NCBI RefSeq assembly: GCF_000294655.1
Contig: NZ_CAHP01000009.1
Coordinates: forward strand, 27,607 to 91,606
Direction of reading: 5' to 3'
From: Magnetospirillum molischianum DSM 120
Lineage (GTDB): Bacteria; Pseudomonadota; Alphaproteobacteria; Rhodospirillales; Magnetospirillaceae
Length of the DNA stretch: 64,000 nt
The notes below the pieces were generated by a model, which was given only the letters and a program-made list of their open reading frames with translations, had not been told where the DNA came from and made no database searches. Shown here piece by piece: positions 57,990 to 64,000 of the stretch. The translations under genes and the position numbers were made by a program. The number at the start of each line of letters is the position of its first letter. The stretch's first letter is position 1.

Positions 57990-58172
57990 GCCATTCTTAA
58001 AGGGTGAGCGGCGTAACCGCCCACCCTTTAGCCGCCGTAGTTCACTTACGGTGACTTGGCTAGGACTCGCAACCCAGAGTGGTTGTGGCGTACTCTGGTC
58101 CGCCCATCGGGGATCCTGCCAGCTCTTCACGGAGGAAGACCGTCGGGCACGACCGGCGGTCTTTTCGTTTCC
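57990..58172 (+). ncRNA. candidate structured small RNA ending in a terminator
   Basis: Between cysQ and the GNAT gene there are successive hairpins. AAAGGGTG...CACCCTTT (about 57998-58029) has GCGG/CCGC inside it. Then come CCGTA...TACGG within AGCC...GGCT (about 58031-58062), and CCAGAGT...ACTCTGG (about 58075-58099). Last is AAGACCG...CGGTCTT followed by TTCGTTTCC (about 58136-58172). The last has terminator form, yet no gene ends just upstream. TTGCAT at about 57971 is a possible -35. I cannot match it to a known RNA family. Confidence 0.3.
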
Positions 58173-58223
58173 CCCCTTTCCTTCGCTCTCCCCTGCCCCC
58201 ATCTGTGGTTCAGCCCCTTCACC

Positions 58224-58817
58224 ATGATTGGGACGGCCATGCTGATCCGCCGCCTTCCACCGCACGAACGGTCGTCCTATGCCGACCATCTGAAACGGCT
58301 GTGCTCCGATGACCGCCACCTCCGCTTTGCCCGCGCCGGAGTCAGCGATGAATGGCTGGACTCCTATGTCGCCACCATCCCCGAAGATGGCCTGATCCTT
58401 GTCGGCATGCAGCGTAACCAAGTGATTGCCGCAGCCCATGTTGCCTTTGACAGCGACAACGGCGTTGCCGAAGTCGGCCTCAGCGTCGATGCGGAACATC
58501 GCTCGGGCGGGTTGGGATCTGAATTGCTCAATCAGGCGGTCGTGTTCGCCCGGAACCGTCGCGCCGAACGGCTTTACACCCTGTGCCTGTCCGACAATCG
58601 GTCGATGGTGGCGCTGGCCCGCCGTGCTGGGATGGATATTCAGTTCTCTCAGGGCGAGGCAGAAGCGCATCTGCCGCTGCCGCCGCCTGACCCGCTGACG
58701 GTATCCCAGGAAATGTCGGCGGGTCTGTTCGCGGTATTCCGCGATTGGGCCGAATTGTTCGACCGCTATGGCTCGCTGGCAAGCGAATTGGCATCGGGAG
58801 GACGTGCGAAGAGGTAG
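58224..58817 (+). CDS. GNAT family N-acetyltransferase
   Basis: This 197-residue protein begins MIGTAMLIRRLPPHERSSY. It has a GNAT core with AEVGLSVDAEHRSGGLGSELLNQAV (acetyl-CoA loop in the R..G.G form, here RSGGLG) and RRAERLYTLCLSDNRSMVALARRAGM. The C-terminal ~60 residues are specific. The substrate is unknown. Start chosen by where the fold begins. Confidence 0.85.
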   Translation: MIGTAMLIRRLPPHERSSYADHLKRLCSDDRHLRFARAGVSDEWLDSYVATIPEDGLILVGMQRNQVIAAAHVAFDSDNGVAEVGLSVDAEHRSGGLGSELLNQAVVFARNRRAERLYTLCLSDNRSMVALARRAGMDIQFSQGEAEAHLPLPPPDPLTVSQEMSAGLFAVFRDWAELFDRYGSLASELASGGRAKR

Positions 58818-58853
58818 GATTCTGCGGTCGGTCTGCGCTATACCCAAACGGCC

Positions 58854-59816
58854 ATGTCCGACGCTCTCCCCCCCCTGCCCATCCCGCCCGACCGTCTGGC
58901 CAAAGCCACGCATATACTGGCTGAGAACGGTCTCGTCGCCTTTCCCACCGAAACGGTCTATGGCCTTGGCGGCGACGCCACCAGCGACATTGCCGTCGCC
59001 GCGATCTTCGCCGCCAAGGGCCGCCCCAGCTTCAACCCGCTGATCGCCCATGTCGATTCGGTCGAAGCCGCCACCGCCCTGGTCGAGTTCGGCCCGCTGG
59101 CCCTGGCCCTGGCCGCCCGGTTCTGGCCCGGTCCGCTCACTATGGTGCTGCCTCGACACCCCAATTCGCCGGTCTCTCTGCTCGCCACCGCCGGGTTGGA
59201 CAGTATCGCCGTGCGAATGCCCGACCATCCAATTGCGCTGGCCCTGCTCCAGGCATTCGGCCGTCCATTGGCGGCACCGTCGGCGAACCGCTCTGGTGCG
59301 GTCAGCCCGACCACGGCGGCCCATGTCGCGCAATCGCTGGGAGATCGGGTTGGGATGATCCTGGATGGCGGCCCGTGCCGGGTCGGCGTCGAGTCAACCG
59401 TGCTGGATCTCACCGGCCCTTCGCCCCTGTTGCTGCGTCCGGGCGGCATATCACAAGAGGCTCTGACGGAAATCCTGGGAGTACGGCCCGAACGGCCTCA
59501 TCCTGAAATCGGCGCGGTAACCGCCCCCCGCGCACCGGGCATGTTGTCCAGCCACTATGCCCCATCGCTGCCGGTTCGGCTGGAAGCCGCCGCCGCTGCT
59601 CCAGGCGAAGCGTTGCTAGGCTTTGGCCCCGGCGAGGCGACCCTGAACCTGTCGCCCGGCGGCGATCCGACCGAGGCTGCCGCCAATCTGTTTTCGATGC
59701 TGCGCGCCCTCGACCGCCCCGATTTTTCAGGCATTGCCGTCCGACCGATCCCCGATGCCGGACTAGGCTTGGCGATCAACGACCGTCTGCGCCGGGCGGC
59801 GGCCCCTAGAGGATAA
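58854..59816 (+). CDS. tsaC: L-threonylcarbamoyladenylate synthase (Sua5/TsaC)
   Basis: This 320-residue protein makes the adenylate used for t6A37 of tRNA. It has VAFPTETVYGLGGDA, KGRPSFNPLIAHV, WPGPLTMVLPR and APSANRSG (active-site KR..S.N). A C-terminal Sua5 domain (from about 215) follows, so it is the two-domain Sua5 type. It starts 36 bases after the GNAT gene and five before the dehydrogenase gene. Confidence 0.94.
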   Translation: MSDALPPLPIPPDRLAKATHILAENGLVAFPTETVYGLGGDATSDIAVAAIFAAKGRPSFNPLIAHVDSVEAATALVEFGPLALALAARFWPGPLTMVLPRHPNSPVSLLATAGLDSIAVRMPDHPIALALLQAFGRPLAAPSANRSGAVSPTTAAHVAQSLGDRVGMILDGGPCRVGVESTVLDLTGPSPLLLRPGGISQEALTEILGVRPERPHPEIGAVTAPRAPGMLSSHYAPSLPVRLEAAAAAPGEALLGFGPGEATLNLSPGGDPTEAAANLFSMLRALDRPDFSGIAVRPIPDAGLGLAINDRLRRAAAPRG

Positions 59817-59821
59817 TTGCG

Positions 59822-61231
59822 ATGACGACTCCTCTCGAAGGACTGGCGACGATCGTCGGTCCAGGCAACATGTTGACCGATCCAACCGACATGGCCCCCT
59901 ATCTGATCGAAGAGCGCGGCCTCTACCGCAGTTCGGCCCAGGCGGTGGTGCGTCCCGGCTCGACCGCCGAAGTCGCCGCTGTGGTCCAGATCTGCGCCGA
60001 AGCCAAAATCGCGATGGTCCCCCAGGGAGGCCGCACCGGACTGTGCGGTGGCGCGGTTCCGGCCGGACTCGACCGGGCGATCGTGATCGCGACGGAACGA
60101 ATGGATCGTATCCGGGTTCTCGATCCGGTCGATTTCACCATGACCGTCGAAGCAGGCTGCGTTCTGGCGTCACTCCAGGCAGCAGCGGACGAGGCCGGGT
60201 GCCTGTTTCCGCTGTCGTTGGCGGCCGAAGGATCGTGCCGGATCGGGGGCAACATCGCCACCAATGCGGGCGGCACCAACGTCCTGCGTTATGGCTCGAC
60301 CCGCGATCTGGTGCTGGGACTCGAAATCGTGCTGCCCGACGGACGGGTGTGGAACGGCCTTAAGTCGTTGCGCAAAGACAATACAGGCTATGCACTGAAC
60401 CAATTGTTCATCGGCTCGGAGGGGACACTGGGGATCGTCACCGCCGCCGTCCTGAAGCTGTACCCCCGCCCTACCGAGCGCCAGACCGCGTTGATCGGCC
60501 TCCCCGACTCCCAGGCGGCGCTGACCCTGCTGGGACAAGCGAGACGGGCCAGCGGTGACGCCGTTACCGCCTGCGAACTGATGTCACGGTTAGCCCTCGA
60601 TCTGGCGGTGCGGCATATCCCCGGCTTGCGCGACCCGCTGGGAACGCCGTCGCCGTGGGTGCTGTTGCTGGAATTGTCGTCGTCGCGGCCGGGCGGGCTG
60701 CGCGAAGCGCTGGAATCCGTGCTGTCACAAGCGCTGGAAGACGGAACCGCCCAAGACGCGGTTCTGGCCGAAAGCGGCACGCAGCGTCAGGCCCTGTGGC
60801 GGCTGCGCGAATCAATCCCCGAAGCCCAAAAGCACGAAGGCGGCAGCATCAAACACGACATCTCGGTCTCGACCTCGCGCGTACCCGAACTGATCGAGCG
60901 CGCCAGTGCGGCAGTGGCGGACGCCCTGCCCGGCGCGCGTCCGGTGGCGTTCGGTCATATCGGTGACGGAAACATCCATTTCAACGTGTCCCAGCCGGAA
61001 GGAGCCGACAAGAACGCTTTTCTCGACGAATGGCCCCGTCTCAACCGGGTCGTCCACGATATCGTCATGGGGATGGGCGGTTCGATCTCGGCCGAACACG
61101 GCATCGGCCGACTGAAAGCCGCCGAACTGGCTCGGATCAAGCCAGACTTGGACATCGAGCTGATGCGGAGGATCAAAACAGCGTTCGACCCGGACGGACT
61201 GATGAATCCTGGAGCAGTACTTATCCCCTAA
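59822..61231 (+). CDS. FAD-linked 2-hydroxyacid dehydrogenase (GlcD / D-2-hydroxyglutarate type)
   Basis: This 469-residue protein has an FAD-binding_4 domain (MVPQGGRTGLCGGAVPAG, RIGGNIATNAGGTNVLRYG) and a C-terminal FAD-oxidase domain with AFGHIGDGNIHFNVSQP and SAEHGIGRLKAAEL. These are the blocks of D-lactate, glycolate-subunit or D-2-hydroxyglutarate dehydrogenases. The exact substrate cannot be told here. It is probably cotranscribed with tsaC. Confidence 0.9.
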   Translation: MTTPLEGLATIVGPGNMLTDPTDMAPYLIEERGLYRSSAQAVVRPGSTAEVAAVVQICAEAKIAMVPQGGRTGLCGGAVPAGLDRAIVIATERMDRIRVLDPVDFTMTVEAGCVLASLQAAADEAGCLFPLSLAAEGSCRIGGNIATNAGGTNVLRYGSTRDLVLGLEIVLPDGRVWNGLKSLRKDNTGYALNQLFIGSEGTLGIVTAAVLKLYPRPTERQTALIGLPDSQAALTLLGQARRASGDAVTACELMSRLALDLAVRHIPGLRDPLGTPSPWVLLLELSSSRPGGLREALESVLSQALEDGTAQDAVLAESGTQRQALWRLRESIPEAQKHEGGSIKHDISVSTSRVPELIERASAAVADALPGARPVAFGHIGDGNIHFNVSQPEGADKNAFLDEWPRLNRVVHDIVMGMGGSISAEHGIGRLKAAELARIKPDLDIELMRRIKTAFDPDGLMNPGAVLIP

Positions 61232-61321
61232 CAAAAGGGATAACACACACCCTACGCTATAGAAATTTCAGCAGTTTGCGCTATATCTTTAGTCGAAATC
61301 CTCTCCCAGGGGGTGCCCGAC

Positions 61322-62161
61322 ATGCGCAGACGATCGCTGATGGGATTCATGATGGCGGCAGCGATGGCGGCAACGCTGACACCCGCCACGGTCCGTGCCG
61401 AGGAAACGCTGCGGATCGGCGTGGTTCCCCACACCAGCGCCCGAGTAGTGCTGGAAATGTACCAGCCCCTTCGCGAACAGTTAGAGGCCGAACTGGGCCA
61501 CAAGGTTGAGATTCAGACAGCGCCTGATTTCTCATCCTTCGCCCGACGCGCTCTGGATCGTGAATACGACATCGCAATCACCACCGGCCATCAAGCCCGA
61601 CTGCTTCAGCAGGATGCGGGCTACCTGCCGCTGGTCACCTACGAAGCGGAGTTTCGAGCGGTGATGGTGGTGGCGGAATTGTCTCCGATCAGACGGCCGG
61701 AAAATCTGACCGGCAAGACGATAATCGGGCTGGGTCCGACCTCGTTGGTGACACAATGGGGGCAACACTGGATCGCCGAACACGGCATCGCCGATATCCA
61801 GACCCGCTATGTCAGTGCCGCCGACAGCGTGGCCCAATTGCTGCTGACCGACGAAGCCGCCATCGGGTTGATGTCCAACGCCAATTTCCATCGGCTCGCC
61901 CCGGACGTTCAGGCCCGGCTGCGCCTGTTTGCCCGCTCCGAGCCGATGCTGGGCCGGGTCTACATGCTAAACGGTGCCCTGGCCGATCATCGGGCCAAGA
62001 TCCTGGCCGCGTTGCATGCCTTCGCCGCGTCTCCTGCGGGAAAGAGCTACTTCAACGGCACCAGCCTGATCGGCTACCGCCTCGTCACCCCCCAGGAACT
62101 GGCGGCGATGGACCCCTTCGCCCTCGAAGTCCGCAATATGCTGGCGACGGAGAAACCATGA
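61322..62161 (+). CDS. PhnD-like periplasmic phosphate/phosphonate-type binding protein
   Basis: This ~279-residue protein has a signal peptide (SLMGFMMAAAMAATLTPATVRA, cleaved after VRA). The PhnD-type core has LRIGVVPHTSARVVLEMYQPL, DYDIAITTGHQARLL-like region and GLGPTSLVTQWG. Start at 61322 (ATG after AGGGGG) is preferred over the GTG three codons earlier. Its stop overlaps the next start (ATGA), so it is coupled to a sensor protein rather than to permease genes. It is likely a ligand receptor for signalling, not import. Confidence 0.85.
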   Translation: MRRRSLMGFMMAAAMAATLTPATVRAEETLRIGVVPHTSARVVLEMYQPLREQLEAELGHKVEIQTAPDFSSFARRALDREYDIAITTGHQARLLQQDAGYLPLVTYEAEFRAVMVVAELSPIRRPENLTGKTIIGLGPTSLVTQWGQHWIAEHGIADIQTRYVSAADSVAQLLLTDEAAIGLMSNANFHRLAPDVQARLRLFARSEPMLGRVYMLNGALADHRAKILAALHAFAASPAGKSYFNGTSLIGYRLVTPQELAAMDPFALEVRNMLATEKP

Positions 62162-64000
62162 TCTGGCCATTTCGTATTCGTACCGTCCGCGCCCGCTTGC
62201 TGATTGCCGCCATCCTGGTTGAAACGGTGATGCTGACTCTGATGGTTGGCAACGGATTGCGGGTGCTGTCCTCAAGTCTTGAGACCCAGGCCGAGACCCA
62301 GGCTGAACAATTGGTGCCGGTGCTTCAGGCGGCACTGATCACGCCCCTTGCCCAGCGTGACCATGCCACCGTCCAGGCGATTCTAGACGAAAGCCGGATT
62401 TCGAATGCCCTCGATTATCTTGCGGTCGAAGACGTGCGCGGCCGTGTCATCGCGATCAGCGGATGGGATAAGGCGCGTTCCCTGCCTGCGGTCGATCCAC
62501 AGATTTCCTTTAGCGAGAAAGCGCCGGGGATTCACCGCTTCGACGTTGACGCTCCGATCGGTTTGTTGGGGCAGGATCTGGGCCGACTGCAATTTGGGCT
62601 GAACCTCGACCAGCAGGTCGCGGCTCTGCATACCCAGTTTTCGCAAAGTCTGGCGATTGCCGCCGCCGAGATCGCACTTTCTGCCGCCCTGCTGACCGCG
62701 ATCGGGATCTGGCTGACCCGTCATCTGACCGCTTTCACCCGCATGAGCAAGGCAGTCGGCAAAGGCGATTACACCTCGGTCGAGATGACCGAGGGAGAAG
62801 ACGATATCGGCCAATTAGGCTATGCCTTCAACGCGATGTCGCGCGCCGTGCGCGAGCGTGTCGAAGATCTGACCGTTGCGATCCGTCGCCGCGAGGACGT
62901 CGAAAATGAATTGCGCACCAGCGAAGCTCGTTTCCGTGATCTCGCCGCATCGGCATCGGACTGGTTCTGGGAATCCGACGATCAAGGCCGCCTGACCTAT
63001 GCCTCGGATCTGATCGCGTCGGTACTGGGGGTAACTCCGGCGGCGGTGATCGGCCTCAGTTGGTTCGATCTCGGCCTCAACGACCTGCCCGAACACGCTA
63101 ATCAATATCGTCAAGACCTTGCCGATCATGCCCCTTTCCGCGATCTGACGATCAATATCGGCCCACCGGGCGGAAAAGATTTCCGCACCGTGCGGATCAG
63201 CGGCACCCCGGTATTCGACGCCGATGGCCGCTTCGCTGGCTATCGCGGCGTCGGGGCCGACATCACGCGAGAGGCCCAGGCCGAATTCCGCGCCCAGCGC
63301 GCCCAGCAACAACTTGTCGATGCGCTGGAGAGTCTGGCTGACGCGATCGCGGTCTATGATTCCAACGATCATCTGGTGATTAGCAACGCTGCTTATCGCG
63401 GCTTGTTGAAGATCGACCAGGAAACGGCGGAAGGCGACGTAACCTTCCGCGACGTCATCACTTATGCCTACGATCACCGCTTGTTCAACATCGGCGGGCG
63501 GAGTTTCGATACCTGGATCGACGACCGGGTTCACCGCCACCGCGATGCCAACGGCGAGGCATTTATCATCCAGACCAACGATGGCCGCTGGTTCCAGAGC
63601 CGTGAATTTCCGACACGCGAGGGCGGCGTGGTTTCTGTTCGCACCGATATCACCGAGTTGAAGCGGCGCGAGGAGGCTGGGTGTCGGCGATACCTCTACA
63701 GTTCCTCGGCCTGCGTCTATGCCAGCGAGAAACAGGACGCTCCCGACGTTCCCGCCCTGAAAGAAGCCGACGCCTATCCCGCCATGCCCGAGGATGGTTA
63801 CGGATGGGAAAAGCTGTTCAGCGAACGCATGTGCCGCCATTTCTCGGAAGATTATGGTTTAGATACCCGCATCGTGCGCCTGCATAACGTCTATGGTCCG
63901 CTCGGCACTTATGACGGCGGGCGGGAAAAGGCACCGGCCGCTATTTCCCGCAAAGTGCTTGAGGCAAAGCTGTCCGGTAACCACGCTATCGAGATTTGGG
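62158..64000 (+). CDS. PAS sensor protein, frame continuing into a sugar-nucleotide epimerase tail (chimera; 3' end outside window)
   Basis: The frame is open from the ATG at 62158 to the end of the window (614 codons). Transmembrane helix 1 is at about residues 12-36, then a periplasmic domain, helix 2 at about 164-186, HAMP (about 187-240) and PAS 1 (about 254-370: RFRDLAASASDWFWES). PAS 2 (about 384-505) ends VRTDITELKRREEA. From residue about 507 (63676) the sequence changes to an extended-SDR epimerase: RRYLYSSSACVY, EDGYGWEKLFSERMCRHF and HNVYGPLGTYDGGREKAP. A kinase or cyclase output domain would be expected instead. It is coupled to the PhnD-like gene. Confidence 0.8.
   Translation, partial: MIWPFRIRTVRARLLIAAILVETVMLTLMVGNGLRVLSSSLETQAETQAEQLVPVLQAALITPLAQRDHATVQAILDESRISNALDYLAVEDVRGRVIAISGWDKARSLPAVDPQISFSEKAPGIHRFDVDAPIGLLGQDLGRLQFGLNLDQQVAALHTQFSQSLAIAAAEIALSAALLTAIGIWLTRHLTAFTRMSKAVGKGDYTSVEMTEGEDDIGQLGYAFNAMSRAVRERVEDLTVAIRRREDVENELRTSEARFRDLAASASDWFWESDDQGRLTYASDLIASVLGVTPAAVIGLSWFDLGLNDLPEHANQYRQDLADHAPFRDLTINIGPPGGKDFRTVRISGTPVFDADGRFAGYRGVGADITREAQAEFRAQRAQQQLVDALESLADAIAVYDSNDHLVISNAAYRGLLKIDQETAEGDVTFRDVITYAYDHRLFNIGGRSFDTWIDDRVHRHRDANGEAFIIQTNDGRWFQSREFPTREGGVVSVRTDITELKRREEAGCRRYLYSSSACVYASEKQDAPDVPALKEADAYPAMPEDGYGWEKLFSERMCRHFSEDYGLDTRIVRLHNVYGPLGTYDGGREKAPAAISRKVLEAKLSGNHAIEIW
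63676..64000 (+). other. C-terminal part of an NAD-dependent epimerase (GDP-mannose 3,5-epimerase-like), joined in frame to the sensor
   Basis: About 108 residues: SSSACVY (catalytic Ser region), then AYPAMPEDGYGWEK with the YxxxK catalytic pair. RIVRLHNVYGPLGTYDGGREKAPAA and EIW at the edge follow. This resembles the middle of GDP-mannose 3,5-epimerase and related SDR proteins. The Rossmann N-terminus (GGxGxxG) is missing, because the preceding sequence is the PAS sensor. Confidence 0.8.

Follow-up and report, generated by a model that had tools for sequence, protein, structure and literature searches.

The locus at the end of the contig

The window, by which we mean the whole 64,000-nucleotide stretch analysed here, corresponds to C9:27607-91606 of a draft assembly of 3,805,617 bases in 61 contigs. 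With a length of 91606 bases, C9 ends exactly where the window does. Fourteen matches to the light-harvesting family PF00556 lie above the cut-off in loci L235-L245 (contigs C1, C13, C14 and C47), which indicates, on sequence grounds, that antenna genes of the purple-phototroph type are present in the organism. Among its LH2 alpha chains, the best reaches 91% identity to the closest LH2 chain in the PDB, 7tuw_M, from an entry that we take to derive from P. molischianum. The G+C content of the window is 61.7%, and a value of 61.5% is given for Phaeospirillum molischianum DSM 120 (PMC5571425).

The following features lie at the end of the window.

61313..62161, + strand: PhnD-like periplasmic binding protein gene, 282 aa (Pfam Phosphonate-bd PF12974, 132 bits), inside the stretch 58022-63673 that is collinear with Magnetospirillum fulvum
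62158..63676, + strand: 5' part of the sensor gene, with a membrane segment, a weak HAMP and PAS domains; probably the first 506-507 codons of a 1078-codon histidine kinase
63271..63676, no strand assigned: overlap with the start of contig C10 (bases 1-406), identical bar one N in C10
63674..63676, no strand assigned: switch AGG, common to the sensor gene (C10) and the epimerase gene (C20) in the DNA comparison
63677..64000, + strand: tail, almost certainly chimeric; identical at 324/324 bases to C20:252743-252420, within an intact GDP-mannose-3,5-epimerase-like gene, and running to the end of the contig

The first bases of the sensor gene are also the last of the PhnD-like gene. In the ORF reading of the window, the frame from 62158 is open as far as the window end (614 codons). 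The first-pass annotation had described a sensor frame that passes without a stop into an epimerase, and both the frame and the order of the Pfam domains confirm this; the coordinates given there are correct. HAMP is found at residues 185-232 of the joined frame (22.2 bits, below the Pfam cut-off of 25), PAS_4/PAS_9 at about 267-373, PAS_7 at 390-506 and Epimerase (PF01370) from residue 506. The epimerase profile is entered at position 104 of 240, in agreement with the earlier remark that the epimerase is without its nucleotide-binding N-terminus.

At the DNA level, identity to C10 runs through 63676 and identity to C20 begins at 63674, which places the switch point at 63674-63676 (AGG), with the contig end 324 bases further on. 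Directly before AGG, GCGGCGCG is present in both the sensor and the epimerase genes, one base out of register. We compared these common bases with 20000 random break points between the sensor and epimerase stretches, and with 20000 random 26-base pairs. Three or more common bases occurred at 1181 of the 20000 break points, so that the 3-base overlap is unremarkable by itself and in this respect counts against an assembly artefact; 285 of the 20000 random pairs scored at least as high in local alignment as the real one. The bases in common at the switch thus deviate mildly from chance, in the way expected of a template switch, but do not prove one.

Intact copies of the two genes in the same assembly

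A search of the joined protein against its own genome returned 13 matches, including the window itself. C10:1-408 matches residues 372-507 at 99% and C20:252421-252783 matches residues 494-614 at 91%; the other ten matches are weaker (at most 39% identity) and all concern parts of the sensor side. The DNA comparison showed that C10:1-406 equals window 63271-63676 apart from the single N, and that window 63677-64000 is identical to C20 at every base. Moreover, the DNA of 63577-64000 matches C9, C10 and C20 only, and a break caused by a repeat was rejected because no dispersed repeat is found there.

C10 carries the sensor frame from its first base up to a stop at 2124; these 707 codons encode PAS domains and a HATPase_c domain (PF02518, 83.7 bits, residues 568-675 of 686) at the C-terminal end. 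No Pfam HisKA model is listed at E <= 0.001 for either the C10 part or the M. fulvum protein; NCBIfam histidine-kinase models match the region with scores below their cut-offs. By coordinates, the 371 codons on C9 ahead of the overlap and the 707 codons on C10 add up to 1078 codons. We infer that the true protein is a histidine kinase of 1078 aa, anchored in the membrane, with HAMP and multiple PAS domains.

REC-HDOD and REC-HD regulators lie downstream of the sensor gene on C10. The PhnD-like binding protein, the multi-PAS histidine kinase, the REC-HDOD and the REC-HD genes form a cluster (window 61313-62161 and 62158-63676, then L015:1-4480) that is collinear with M. fulvum. From this gene order, the sensor kinase is predicted to work with the upstream PhnD-like binding protein and the downstream REC-HDOD / REC-HD response regulators. 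The locus has the usual layout of a two-component system linked to a binding protein, with a probable role in signalling.

The epimerase gene on C20 is likewise intact, on the minus strand (L016:12071-13093), and encodes 340 aa. Its product matches GDP-mannose 3,5-epimerase (PDB 2c59, 2c54, 8sg0) with 286 bits over residues 14-329, against 90 bits for the best other enzyme type. It is thus by far closest to GDP-mannose 3,5-epimerase, and the gene is best described as encoding a separate, GDP-mannose-3,5-epimerase-like enzyme with that predicted activity.

The first-pass annotation had proposed an artefact or a deletion. An internal deletion joining the sensor gene to the epimerase gene would explain why half of each gene is missing on C9, but it is contradicted because both genes are intact in the assembly, the 3' part of the sensor on C10 and the whole epimerase on C20, and nothing has been lost. 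We therefore give this reading virtually no weight, and only the artefact part of the proposal stands.

The join in relatives

The first-pass annotation had raised the question whether the two halves are ever adjacent in related genomes; they are not in any of the matches and loci listed. We searched 60 genomes, the assembly itself (G000) included, at E <= 1e-20 with up to 21 candidates scored per genome, and found at least one match in 52 of them. The three best matches in relatives end at residues 506-508 of the joined protein, and, apart from those in G000, none of the matches listed for the 60 genomes spans the two halves.

In both M. fulvum genomes (DSM 13234 and MGU-K5; G005 and G015), the intact sensor is a single 1078-aa gene. 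Window 58022-63673 and C10:1-4479 align with one M. fulvum locus at 81-82% identity, and the two aligned stretches overlap by 403 bases within that locus, as C9 and C10 do. The C20 stretch has no match at the M. fulvum sensor locus. Additionally, with up to 21 candidates scored per genome, no match to the epimerase part is listed for either M. fulvum genome at E <= 1e-20; the absence of the join there therefore informs little on the epimerase side, while the M. fulvum genomes support the true end of the sensor.

In a species-level genome collection, at least 482 stretches encode a relative, and 80 loci were kept. Two of these, both from M. fulvum, match residues 1-505, and the remaining 78 match the epimerase end only. 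The epimerase piece was found in none of the 21 sensor loci (19 distinct places, since the two M. fulvum loci were fetched twice; those from the 60-genome search reach about 1.5 kb beyond the match), and the sensor was found in none of the 78 epimerase loci. In a protein collection, where the 7995 candidates with most words in common were scored in each search, PAS and epimerase domains occurred together only in the window's own protein among the best 120 of 754 and the best 120 of 351 hits. Full-length sensors of 1077-1079 aa with the kinase end come from three other sources (P0002-P0004); in each, a single chain matches the parts encoded on C9 (88-90%) and on C10 (85-86%).

These results bear on a true functional fusion, in which PhnD-linked sensing would control an epimerase domain. 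The single open frame without a stop is what such a protein would show, but its epimerase part would be without the NAD-binding N-terminus, its domain order is absent from the listed homologues, and on C10, as in the two M. fulvum genomes, the same sensor goes on to a kinase end. We consider a functional fusion extremely unlikely; the earlier suggestion that the join, if real, is a new fusion finds no counterpart in any listed relative. The join is of note as a caution only, as the joined frame sits in the protein collection as a 614-aa PAS + epimerase protein (P0001) and could pass for a new domain fusion.

Other contig ends and the origin of the join

We compared 109 end stretches of the 61 contigs, of which 26 are all N and 83 are readable; matches shorter than 40 bases or below 95% identity were dropped, as were self-matches. 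Many other contig ends of the assembly sit in repeats. Nine unmerged end-to-start overlaps of 201-784 bases were found (C8/C9, C9/C10, C10/C11, C22/C24, C24/C26, C31/C32, C35/C36, C46/C47 and C53/C54), a selection that we restricted to contigs with adjacent or next-but-one numbers, leaving out C57/C58 and overlaps in multi-copy repeats. C57 and C58 (L175, L217 / L176, L218) overlap mutually at both ends, by 618 and 490 bases; the pair might form a circle of some 8.1 kb or represent a repeat.

In six of the nine pairs, a tail extends past the overlap by 24-324 bases, and an exact copy elsewhere was found for four of the five tails searched, that of C9 included. The C35 end (L204) is a copy of C14:347843-347907 and the C11 start (L129) a copy of C14:321915-321947, both in the C14 interior, and the C22 end (L194) is a 32-base repeat of C22 itself, 1369 bases upstream. 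In these three cases, an unmerged overlap of 421-467 bases with the neighbour is followed by a switch to DNA from elsewhere. The bases common at the switch number 2 for C11, 3 for C9, 8 for C22 (CGGCGCGG) and 10 for C35 (GGTGGTGGCG).

The fifth tail searched, the last 318 bases of C46 (L212, C46:4419-5918), follows a 527-base overlap of the C46 end with the C47 start. No second copy of it exists in the assembly; the tail departs from the pattern, was rejected as a further example and counts against the artefact. The sixth tail, outside the five searched, is the C9 head, with several Ns just after it. The C21 head was not counted: the first 287 bases occur once in the assembly, and this head otherwise matches two other contig ends.

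Taken together, the sensor-epimerase join is almost certainly a chimeric contig end, that is, an artefact of assembly rather than a new protein. The tail is an exact copy of a segment inside the intact C20 gene and lies at a contig end, which makes an artefact the most likely origin; moreover, the true continuation is found in frame on the overlapping C10. Chimeric contig ends from hybrid reads occur in draft shotgun assemblies. A hybrid read probably switched from the sensor to the epimerase gene at the few shared bases described above (AGG and the short motif just before it), and the assembler would have kept this read as the end of C9 and opened the true continuation as C10. We infer that such a read, retained by the assembler, gave rise to the chimeric end. 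The frame happens to be kept at the switch (a one-in-three chance), so that gene calling yields a single long protein. The first-pass annotation had favoured an artefact over a functional fusion, and this preference is borne out by the C10 and C20 copies, the contig end and the three similar ends.

Alternatively, the join might be a real rearrangement, in which a second copy of the epimerase segment was joined in frame to the sensor by microhomology, either in the strain itself or in a fraction of the culture. The assembly contains the intact genes as well as the join, which is what one would expect of a mixed population or a duplication, and the frame is kept across the join. However, the copy is unchanged over its 324 bases and stops with the contig, and three other contig ends switch in the same way, so that several independent events would be needed, all of them at contig ends. 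Ends that switch to four different places fit hybrid reads, and four real rearrangements at contig ends are far less likely. We therefore regard a real rearrangement as very unlikely; if it were true, there would be cells with a truncated PhnD-linked sensor bearing an epimerase fragment.

On the preferred reading, a chimeric contig end, the PhnD-like gene at 61313..62161 is real and lies outside the artefact. At least four contig ends (C9 end, C35 end, C22 end and C11 start) need trimming before the frames there are interpreted.

Compared with known systems, the window differs from GDP-mannose 3,5-epimerase in that it carries only about codons 117-224 of the C20 gene. The sensor resembles the intact one of M. 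fulvum DSM 13234 and MGU-K5, with 89% identity over residues 1-505, equal length by coordinates and the same flanking order; unlike in M. fulvum, the sensor gene is divided here between two contigs, C9 and C10, the first of which has a chimeric end. In the assembled sequence, we saw no difference between this join and the chimeric ends of draft shotgun assemblies. As in those, the sequence switches close to a contig end where a few bases are shared, both sources are intact elsewhere, the overlap with the true neighbour contig is left unmerged, and several cases are found in one assembly.
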